NCBI GenBank assembly: GCA_905233535.1
Contig: CAJOEO010000055.1
Span: forward strand, 1-32,069
Source: an uncultured Treponema sp.
Lineage (GTDB): Bacteria > Spirochaetota > Spirochaetia > Treponematales > Treponemataceae
Length of the DNA: 32,069 nt
Direction: 5' to 3'
The notes below the pieces were generated by a model, which ran no database searches, was not told the DNA's origin, and saw only the letters and a list, made by a program, of their open reading frames with translations. Every line of letters starts with the position of its first letter. Within the stretch, counting starts at the first letter, position 1. Of this stretch, positions 18,542 to 20,224 are shown in pieces. A program made the translations under genes and the position numbers.

Positions 18542-19321
18542 ATGCAAAACGAGTTTTTTCAAAAGTTCGGCAACGACGGCGAAGAAAGTCGGCTGACGTT
18601 AGATTCACTGAAAGTCGTTTCGCCTTTTATGGATTTTTCTTCGGTCGATTTGTTGGAAAACGCAGAAAAAGCGGTTGAAAGAATCGAACAAATAGAACGG
18701 ACTTCGCCCGACGGTCTTGTTGCAGAACTTGGCTCGTCGGGCGGGTCTGTTTTTTTTATCCGAACGAAATATTTGAAAACGATTTCGTTTGTGCAAATTG
18801 CAAAAAAGATTTTTGAAAACACGAGCGCACAATTCGACGAAATCGAATCGGCGGATATAATTTTTGCGTTTGGCGCGTTCGGCGCGGAAAAAAAGGCGTT
18901 AAAAACATTGGAACGCGGCGAAAATTCAAAATTTCTGCTTTTACAAAAACTTCAAAACAAAGGATTCGGGCGGGAAAACGCAAAAGTCGCGCTAGATTTT
19001 TTGGAATCAAAAGGATATTTGGACGACGCGAGGTTTGCAAAAGTTTGGCTTCGTTCGCATTGTGCCACAAAAGCGCAAGGTCGCACTCGCCTACTTTTAG
19101 AACTTCGTTCGCGTGGAATTTCTAAAGAAACGGCGGAAAATACCGTAAACGAATATTTTGAAACCACGGACGAAACGGAAGAATGTATGCGCGCCGCAAA
19201 AAAAGCCGCGCTTCACAAAAAATCAGGTGAAAAACTAATAAAATATTTAATTGACGCAGGATTTCCATATAAAATGGCGGTTTATACATCAAAAGCAATA
19301 GAATCTACGAATAAAATCTAA
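18542..19321 (+). CDS. recX: Regulatory protein RecX
   Basis: A 259-residue RecX-like protein. The C-terminal two thirds contain the three-helix repeats typical of RecX, with LLLQKLQNKGFGRENAKVALDFLESKGYLDDARFAK and, further on, GISKETAENTV and LIKYLIDAGFPYKMA. RecX binds RecA filaments and limits recombination. It is longer than the usual 150-180 residues because of an N-terminal domain of about 115 residues (LTLDSLKVVSPFMDF...), also seen in some longer RecX proteins. There is no clear ribosome binding site; it starts 18 nt after rpsI, so it is probably translated from the same transcript. Confidence 0.82.
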   Translation: MQNEFFQKFGNDGEESRLTLDSLKVVSPFMDFSSVDLLENAEKAVERIEQIERTSPDGLVAELGSSGGSVFFIRTKYLKTISFVQIAKKIFENTSAQFDEIESADIIFAFGAFGAEKKALKTLERGENSKFLLLQKLQNKGFGRENAKVALDFLESKGYLDDARFAKVWLRSHCATKAQGRTRLLLELRSRGISKETAENTVNEYFETTDETEECMRAAKKAALHKKSGEKLIKYLIDAGFPYKMAVYTSKAIESTNKI

Positions 19322-19384
19322 AAGTTCAATTTTGAAAATCTAAATCACTTCGTCTTTTAAAATGTCGGTTTTATAATAGAGATG

Positions 19385-19497
19385 TTCGGAAACTTCAGTT
19401 TCCGAATCATCAACTTTAAAGAAGTCAGTTTTCGCAAGGCTTTAGCCTTGCGAAAACTGATTGACCTGTGAGGAAATGACTGATTTCCGAACAGGTC
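19385..19497. repeat. Cluster of three intergenic hairpins
   Basis: The 303-bp gap between recX and the next gene (19322-19624) contains no credible reading frame but three successive palindromes: 19385-19406 (TTCGGAAACT / AGTTTCCGAA), 19425-19460 (a perfect 16-bp stem with TTTA loop) and 19463-19497 (GACCTGT...ACAGGTC enclosing GGAAAT...ATTTCC). They share words (GGAAAC/GTTTCC, CAGTTT). No T run follows any of them, so they are not ordinary terminators. A TATAAT at 19372-19377 lies just upstream, so this could be the core of a small structured RNA of roughly 120 nt, or a REP-like palindromic element. Confidence 0.7.
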
Positions 19498-19581
19498 TAA
19501 TAATTCACATCAAAAAATAATTTTAACAAACATATTTTTGAGAATTCTACAAAAACAATCGAAAAAAAACGAAAATTCGGA

Positions 19582-19587
19582 TATAAT
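19582..19587 (+). promoter_or_regulatory. -10 box of the HTH-receiver gene
   Basis: TATAAT 37 nt upstream of the ATG at 19625, with a poorly conserved -35 region. Confidence 0.45.
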
Positions 19588-19624: not shown

Positions 19625-20224
19625 ATGAAACAAAATGACGAAAAACTGACCGTTTTTTCGGCGATGGAAGTCGCAAAAATTTGCGGAGTCGTCAATCAAA
19701 CTGCCATAAATTGGATTAAAAACGGTGCTTTAAAGGCGTACTCCACGCCTGGAAAGCAGTATCGTGTTTATCCCGACGACCTCGTTTCTCTTATGGTACG
19801 CAAAAACATGAACGTTCCAAACGAGATTTTGTCGCTATGCAAACGTCGTCCTGCCGAAACAAAACGCCTTTTGATTGTGGACGACGACAAGGGACTGAAT
19901 ACTGTATTAAAAATGTATATACAAAAAAGAATAACGGGGCTTTCGGTCTTTCAAGCATTTGACGGTTTTGAAGCGGGTGCGCTTTTGGTTGAAAAACAGC
20001 CACAATGTTTGATTCTTGACCTTGACCTTCCAGGAATCGATGGATTTGGACTTTGTAAAAAAATCAGCGAAGCGGAAGTTTACGGAAATCCGTCGATTAT
20101 CGTTGTAACCGCTTTGGAAAATGGAAATTTGGAAAGCGAAGTAATGTCGCTAGGCGTGAAACGCTTTTTCAAAAAACCTCTAAATCTTCTTTCGCTCGTG
20201 GACAGCGTAACAGAATATCTTTAG
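19625..20224 (+). CDS. HTH-receiver protein: MerR-like DNA-binding domain fused to a C-terminal response-regulator receiver
   Basis: Residues 1-60 form an excisionase/MerR-like helix-turn-helix (SAMEVAKICGVVNQTAINWIKNG...GKQYRVYPDDLVSLM). Residues 80-199 form a receiver domain: acidic pair in LLIVDDDKG, phospho-acceptor Asp in LILDLDLPGIDGFG, Thr in IVVTALENG, and Lys in KRFFKKPLNL. This order, DNA-binding domain first, reverses the common response-regulator order. AAGG precedes the ATG. No histidine kinase is near. The SPOR protein gene starts 2 nt later, so the two are co-expressed; regulation of envelope or division genes is a possible inference. Confidence 0.85.
   Translation: MKQNDEKLTVFSAMEVAKICGVVNQTAINWIKNGALKAYSTPGKQYRVYPDDLVSLMVRKNMNVPNEILSLCKRRPAETKRLLIVDDDKGLNTVLKMYIQKRITGLSVFQAFDGFEAGALLVEKQPQCLILDLDLPGIDGFGLCKKISEAEVYGNPSIIVVTALENGNLESEVMSLGVKRFFKKPLNLLSLVDSVTEYL

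Follow-up and report, generated by a model that had tools for sequence, protein, structure and literature searches.

The 32,069-nucleotide window, a stretch of DNA from an uncultured Treponema sp., contains one copy of what is very probably a miniature inverted-repeat transposable element (MITE), the partner of which would be a DDE transposase, probably of the ISL2 type. The element has a length of 121 bp, is non-coding, has inverted ends, and lies between two duplications of the form ANT. Copies of it are dispersed, the corresponding gap in relatives is without it, and its ends resemble those of an IS5-like insertion sequence. The features of the window copy and its neighbours are as follows.

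19378–19498, plus strand: complete 121-bp element, very probably a MITE, oriented by the conserved loop AAGGCTTTAGCC, with boundaries set where the aligned copies cease to resemble each other.
19375–19377, no strand: left target-site duplication AAT (form ANT), identical to 19499–19501.
19499–19501, no strand: right target-site duplication AAT, identical to 19375–19377.
19378–19393, plus strand: left terminal inverted repeat AGAGATGTTCGGAAAC, an inverted match to 19483–19498 that resembles both ends of the IS5-like insertion sequence, for example AGACTTGTTCGGAAAC.
19483–19498, minus strand: right terminal inverted repeat, reading AGACCTGTTCGGAAAT on the minus strand, from the aligned copies and their comparison with the insertion sequence ends.
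19381–19411, plus strand: hairpin 1, loop TTCA, with the outer arm within the terminal repeat and the inner arm an inverted copy of the outer one (folds and covariation, helix 1).
19425–19460, plus strand: hairpin 2, 16 perfect pairs, loop TTTA (folds and covariation, helices 2 and 3).
19463–19497, plus strand: hairpin 3, loop GACTG, with the outer arm within the right terminal repeat (folds and covariation, helix 4).
18542–19321, plus strand: upstream neighbour, a recX-like gene (Pfam RecX_HTH2, PF02631, E 1.7e-12; synteny in relatives).
19625–20224, plus strand: downstream neighbour, a gene with HTH_17 and response-regulator receiver domains (Pfam PF12728 and PF00072).

The segment 19360–19520 folds with an energy of −66.5 kcal/mol, compared with −29.3 ± 3.6 kcal/mol for 200 dinucleotide shuffles (z −10.3), none of which was as low, and the three hairpins are real, beyond chance. 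The initial annotation, made from the sequence alone, had correctly described three successive palindromes and a middle stem of 16 bp without mismatch. It had also noted related words among the palindromes; hairpins 1 and 3 indeed share TTCGGAAA / TTTCCGAA, because both include the terminal inverted repeat. The start that it gave, 19385, has to be moved to 19378. The motif AGANNTGTTCGGAAA is present at both ends of the window copy, giving it the terminal inverted repeats of a MITE, and the covariance model match extends over 19375–19501, duplications included. The gap between the stop codon of recX at 19321 and the ATG of the response-regulator gene at 19625 measures 303 nt and, as had been stated, is free of reading frames: no open reading frame of at least 80 amino acids covers the interval, and the element is non-coding, as is a MITE. 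A promoter-like site at 19559–19587 is positioned between the element and the downstream regulator gene. A separate 30-bp A+T-rich inverted repeat, 97% complementary and without spacer, occupies positions 8–67 at the start of the window.

A search for further genomic copies, which had been proposed with the first description, was productive. The genome from which the window derives (2.21 Mb in 237 contigs, 92.7% complete) was searched with a query of 161 bases, and yielded 60 local matches, 25 of them at least 70 bases long. Of these 25, 14 are full-length and the remaining 11 are further long copies. Together with the adjoining bases, the copies fix the ends of the element as AGAGATGTTCGGAAAC ... 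ATTTCCGAACAGGTCT, with ANT outside each end. In 13 of the 14 full-length copies the three bases on the left recur on the right, as AAT, ATT or AGT; only L020 differs (ACT/ATT). No open reading frame of at least 90 amino acids is overlapped by 19 of the 23 copies examined. Seven copies (L021, L022, L023, L026, L027, L028 and L030) are truncated within hairpin 1 at differing points and retain an intact right end. Among the loci read, in this genome or in relatives, there are also solo single hairpins of about 40 bp, which consist of two facing end repeats (L035, L036, L037, L046, L053, L103 and L106); judged by eye, most of them are without matching 3-bp flanks, unlike the full copies. Among the 14 full-length copies, the middle stem is uninterrupted only in that of the window; the others contain an internal loop there, apart from L010 (1934–2060). 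The hairpin-2 stem of L010 is nearly perfect and carries one of the two changes of the window copy, and the two look as if a quasi-palindrome had been corrected in steps.

The copies selected from this genome and its relatives form a set of 131, which combines 51 copies aligned on the covariance model with 80 chosen from among the best-scoring matches listed and is thus not a random sample; one of the copies (L262) is clipped on the left by the end of its contig. ANT is present on both sides of 116 of the 131. The two duplications are identical in 103 of these 116, whereas 2000 shuffles gave 51.5 on average and never more than 68, and the remaining 13 are without a matching middle base.

The insertion can also be followed at the recX locus. 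At the DNA level the downstream gene has a match in 47 of the 118 genomes searched in the genus, the own genome included, and 29 loci of relatives that contain the gene were fetched for comparison of the orthologous gap. In 24 of the 29, recX adjoins the regulator gene, and the two genes are −17 to 263 nt apart as against 303 nt here; the gaps of the two nearest relatives (73% and 72% protein identity) measure 46 and 5 nt. The covariance model has no match in the 24 gaps between recX and the regulator gene, and the two weak matches that it gave in the 29 loci both lie elsewhere. Since 24 relatives keep both neighbouring genes without the element, it is an insertion in this lineage, although the relatives, whose protein identity does not exceed 73%, are not close enough for the exact empty site to be aligned.

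A first search of relatives gave a DNA match in seven of 59 genomes, the own genome among them. A covariance model built from 23 copies extended the distribution within the order: at E ≤ 0.001 it matches 178 of 390 genomes, from 51 of 91 genera, and with a best E ≤ 1e-12 it matches 107 of 390 genomes, from 36 genera. The model also catches the sister family described below, so these are counts of a superfamily; 178 is an upper figure for the exact family and 107 the stricter figure for the superfamily. Matches with E between 1e-3 and 1e-12 were counted without individual reading, and wrong-strand hairpin matches reach about 47 bits. The best nine candidates were scored per genome, and a genome that reached nine has at least nine matches. 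Copies were aligned and read from 44 genomes of 21 genera (counted by hand), the dispersal that belongs to a MITE. A scan for the hairpin-2 core in a collection of named genomes gave at least 117 stretches, and the 80 listed were all from Treponema, Spirochaetaceae or Spirochaetales, several of them from rumen samples. Plasmid and phage collections were negative by blastn, as were viral contigs in one scan for the exact pattern. Three full-length variants have a length of 142 nt (L150, L237 and L263); the extra length in L150 is a longer tip of hairpin 3.

The covariance analysis in relatives, likewise proposed at the outset, established that the stems covary. Alignment with MAFFT alone underrates the structure, with the arms being shifted, and we therefore used an alignment fitted to the model together with shuffled and slid controls. 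In the 51 copies on the model, 95.7% of the pair cells hold standard pairs, compared with 83.1 ± 0.5% in shuffled and 32–52% in slid controls. Changes on both sides occur at 23 of the 38 pairs (14.1 when shuffled), and cells with two-sided changes number 255, against 78 ± 7.7. Unconstrained folding agrees: 129 of the 131 copies form exactly three hairpins of at least seven pairs each, as do 34 of 655 shuffles. Two of the outcomes that would have refuted the first description, a lack of conservation and a lack of further copies, are thereby contradicted. A GCA/GA internal loop in hairpin 2 is present in 78 of the 131 copies by a strict motif and in 100 by a relaxed one.

The ends of the element match those of an IS5-like insertion sequence of about 895 bp, which was found in other genomes of the order. 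The domain DDE_Tnp_4 (PF13359) is present in 42 of 390 genomes. Pairs of terminal repeats 600–1300 bp apart were found at seven of 30 PF13359 loci, six of the pairs at 892–902 bp and one at 640 bp, and the other 23 loci have no end pair. The same holds for all 63 control loci (30 with PF01609, four with PF01797 and 29 with recX). When the end of one element copy is compared with that of one insertion sequence (L043 and L170), 19 of 19 bases are identical, three of them belonging to the ANT flank. In other genomes of the order, the element has ends in common with an autonomous element, as a MITE does.

The partner insertion sequence on L154 encodes the domains HTH_Tnp_4 (PF13613, E 4e-08) and DDE_Tnp_4 (PF13359, E 2.2e-17), a pair that we take to be the mark of the ISL2 group. 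The target duplications of ISL2-group elements generally follow an ANT rule. The best NCBIfam match of the partner transposase is IS5_4, below its cut-off; for NF033581 the best match has 117.2 bits against a curated 140, with a 262-amino-acid frame ending at the edge of the locus as the query. Because the equivalog cut-off for IS5 is not reached, we call the partner IS5-like, and it is probably of the ISL2 type. The flanks of the six full-length insertion sequences (892–902 bp) have a 3-bp match in L152, L153, L161 and L170 and a mismatch in L159 and L168. Two overlapping frames are present in the insertion sequences of L152–L170, in L154 a single frame as it stands, and ribosomal frameshifting probably joins the two.

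With a profile built on the second of these frames, 43 genomes are positive, all of one family of the order (f5) and none of the own family. A match to the covariance model is present in 39 of the 43 (all except G056, G091, G203 and G271), and in 28 of the 43 at E ≤ 1e-12, compared with 178 and 107 of 390 genomes overall; this co-occurrence is confounded with family, because all 43 transposase-positive genomes belong to f5. Domain and specific-profile searches of the 92.7% complete own assembly found no partner transposase. Four genomes of the own family (G202, G390, G096 and G161) have PF13359 matches and are negative with the specific profile, and three PF13359 loci of this family (L175, L176 and L178) are without element ends. 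Two other candidates were rejected. DDE_Tnp_1 (PF01609) is absent from the own genome, and the 30 loci of relatives that encode it have no end pair. A pair of ends 1516 bp apart on contig 14 of G021 is not an insertion sequence, since the ends belong to two solo hairpins on either side of a pectate lyase gene. This stretch (L050, 158–2919) holds two adjacent pectate lyase genes (PF00544), the second of which is flanked by the solo hairpins.

The trimmed interiors of the 131 copies, compared with the six full-length insertion sequences, gave 71 match places from 18 copies. In 69 of them the inner arm of hairpin 3 matches an insertion sequence end, and the other two are 13-base matches elsewhere. 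At least 16 of the 131 copies have such an inner arm. What the element shares with the insertion sequence is thus the end repeats, together with one of them in inverted copy, and no other notable likeness was detected. As only end repeats are common to the two, descent of the element by deletion from this insertion sequence is no more than a possibility.

A transposase of the ISL2 type would bind the ends of the element in trans, excise or copy it, and insert it at ANT by means of cuts staggered by 3 bp. Its spread in this lineage would date from a time when the genome had a matching transposase, none being visible in the assembly now. With each end folded on its own inverted copy, the two transposase-binding arms would lie in hairpins 1 and 3, hairpin 2 being an addition to them. 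RNA read through from recX would form three stable hairpins and, by analogy with ERIC and Correia elements, could affect the decay of the message.

The three-hairpin fold is also found with other ends. We inspected 92 matches to the hairpin-2 core with 75 bases on each side, and many of them have quite different ends. Among them is a sister family of 27 distinct copies that run from GAGGCTGTTCCAAAAC to GTTTTGGAACAGGCTC or variants of these (L318, L321, L330, L334, L340, L350, L351, L356, L377, L399 and others). A 4-bp duplication flanks ten of the 27, compared with 0.86 in shuffled flanks and a maximum of four in 1000 shuffles; matches of 2, 5 and 6 bp are without excess, and 3-bp matches number four against 1.4. 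Twenty of the 27 copies, and 13 of the 14 of simple length, fold into three hairpins. Between the families (123 versus 14 copies), the outer arms have identities of 0.57 and 0.59 and the inner arms of 0.63 and 0.46. The linker has an identity of 0.61, loop 1 of 0.76, hairpin 2 of 0.80 and loop 3 of 0.84. Since it was the hairpin-2 core that led to the sister copies, the likeness of hairpin 2 is inflated, whereas loops 1 and 3 are free of this bias. The sister end pattern fits none of the 131 main-family copies. Among 615 loci there are six pairs of sister ends, none of them around a transposase recognisable by eye. A Treponema socranskii locus (L337, 225–344) was rejected as a copy; it has hairpin 2 and the internal loop amid other hairpins, with neither type of end.

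MITEs are usually regarded as leftovers of one insertion sequence. Here, a sister family combines the same hairpins and loops with other ends and 4-bp duplications, and the fold therefore outlasts the ends. The ends may have been exchanged, or may have diverged with paired changes in both arms, the fold being the lasting part. We tentatively suggest that one three-hairpin fold with fixed loops changes its vehicle across treponeme genera, travelling with differing ends and with 3- and 4-bp duplications. The core, as RNA or single-stranded DNA, would be the selected unit, and the ends would be exchangeable and re-paired into stems. One architecture in 44 genomes of 21 genera, with three hairpins, both transposase-binding ends folded, and paired changes in the stems, makes selection on the fold and a change of transposase testable in a MITE. 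It also provides a source for many of the unexplained intergenic hairpins in the annotation of Treponema genomes.

The fold may be kept by selection on a transcript, the element being a functional structured RNA, cis-acting or small, as well as mobile; we regard this as possible rather than probable. The strong covariation and the excess of paired cells over the slid controls are in its favour. If RNA is selected, intermediates on the transcribed strand should be G-U more often than A-C, and the plus strand has 54 inferred changes by way of G-U against 32 by way of A-C (23:13, 16:7 and 15:12 in hairpins 1, 2 and 3) and 176 G-U against 56 A-C cells. This bias, suggestive only as a sign of selection on RNA, is modest and is slight in hairpin 3, and the inferred changes come from parsimony on a rough tree of about 120 nt. 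Hairpin 2 and loop 3 are closer between the families than the arms of hairpins 1 and 3, a comparison in which the likeness of hairpin 2 is raised by the core-based choice of the sister copies. The orientation of the element relative to genes is inconsistent: of 20 own copies with both neighbours, seven are opposite to both, six have the same direction as both, and seven are mixed. Rfam matches in the window at gathering score are tRNAs only, and all 42 weak matches at the element are below the gathering scores. The -10-like TATAAT to which the initial annotation pointed is present at 19372–19377. It consists of TAT from the flank and the AAT target duplication, is used by no promoter listed in a promoter scan, and lies in a flank that is unrelated in other copies, so that a small RNA with its own promoter is not supported. 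The scan lists four sites in the region, against 2.8 expected, and a weak promoter-like match, at 9 of 12 positions, spans the right end of the element at 19476–19504.

Alternatively, the paired changes could stem from repair of the palindrome in DNA, by template switching between hairpin arms, rather than from selection on RNA, a reading that we consider arguable and short of an even chance. Repair of this kind should leave few intermediates and make the stems perfect. Hairpin 2 fits this, with 77 inferred double Watson-Crick changes against 26 one-sided ones; two neighbouring changes jointly perfect its stem in the window copy, one of them shared by L010, and several genomes have copies with a perfectly palindromic hairpin 3. 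However, one-sided changes exceed double ones in hairpins 1 (81 versus 31) and 3 (63 versus 52), and the G-U bias of the plus strand would be unexpected. Repair should also erase the internal loop of hairpin 2, yet 78–100 of the 131 copies retain it, which argues against repair as the sole cause.

It is very unlikely that the element serves to terminate transcription, whether that of recX or antisense. The hairpins are stable, begin 56 nt past the recX stop, and on the minus strand hairpins 2 and 1 were scored terminator-like; the initial report of no T runs holds for the plus strand. With no T-run on that strand, a terminator of recX is not supported; the element is absent between the same two genes in 24 relatives, and its orientation to genes is inconsistent. 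Of the two identities first suggested, structured RNA or mobile REP-type element, mobility has stood, and the REP type, with movement by a Y1 tyrosine transposase (RAYT), has next to no probability: the element is intergenic, palindromic and of high copy number, single-hairpin versions of about 40 bp exist, and Y1 genes occur in two element-bearing genomes of other genera (G042 and G048), but PF01797 is in none of the five genomes of the own genus that were searched (G000, G015, G021, G027 and G035), the four Y1 loci examined hold no element copy at E ≤ 1e-6, and the 121-bp element ends in AGA..TCT, not in a GTAG or CGTC tag, with long terminal inverted repeats and matching 3-bp duplications.

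In the open-licence PMC literature we found no published description of the element; T. pallidum is among the genomes included in one study (PMC1590033). REP elements, as described in PMC3733652, are intergenic palindromes of 20–40 bp with a GTAG or CGTC tag and a Y1 transposase. They are likewise intergenic palindromic repeats, and their size, tag and transposase do not fit the treponeme element. Two described members of the ISL2 group are ISCaa3, which has 914 bp, two overlapping open reading frames, 275 amino acids and, in the account of PMC3196728, no direct repeats, and ISDge6, which has 1122 nt, an end AGACCtGCTGCGAAA... and a 3-bp repeat TCA (PMC7674623), in place of the ANT in treponemes. 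Both are autonomous, come from other phyla, and resemble the treponeme partner insertion sequence, not the element. A tree in PMC12730594 lists ISL2 as one of the IS5 groups and also includes Harbinger elements, the canonical members of which make 3-bp duplications.

Transcripts of MITEs are described as forming stable stem-loops (PMC10969869). The ERIC / IRU and Correia / NEMIS elements are, like the treponeme element, structured MITEs in the size range of 100–200 bp, with reported effects on host transcripts (PMC2229807). Apart from CIR, bacterial repeats are described in the same source as one long stem-loop in which end pairs with end, whereas in the treponeme element each end is paired with an inverted copy of itself. 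The CIR repeats of Caulobacter and Brucella have separate arms with a linker and are phylogenetically conserved, as is the case here; they have two arms, and the table of that source gives '-' (footnoted) for their terminal repeats and '?' for duplications (PMC2229807). The arms of the treponeme element are three in number, and it has both terminal repeats and duplications.

Ends borrowed from an insertion sequence have their closest precedent in RUP, the repeat unit of pneumococcus, which is described as about 107 bp long, with terminal repeats like those of IS630-Spn1, target duplications and a predicted folded transcript (PMC3049150). RUP and the treponeme element are alike in size, in ends that resemble those of a separate insertion sequence, and in their duplications. 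The partner of RUP is an IS630 element, and RUP is reported to be nearly confined to S. pneumoniae and S. mitis (PMC3049150), whereas the treponeme element has an IS5-like partner, occurs in many genera, and has covarying stems that form three separate hairpins.
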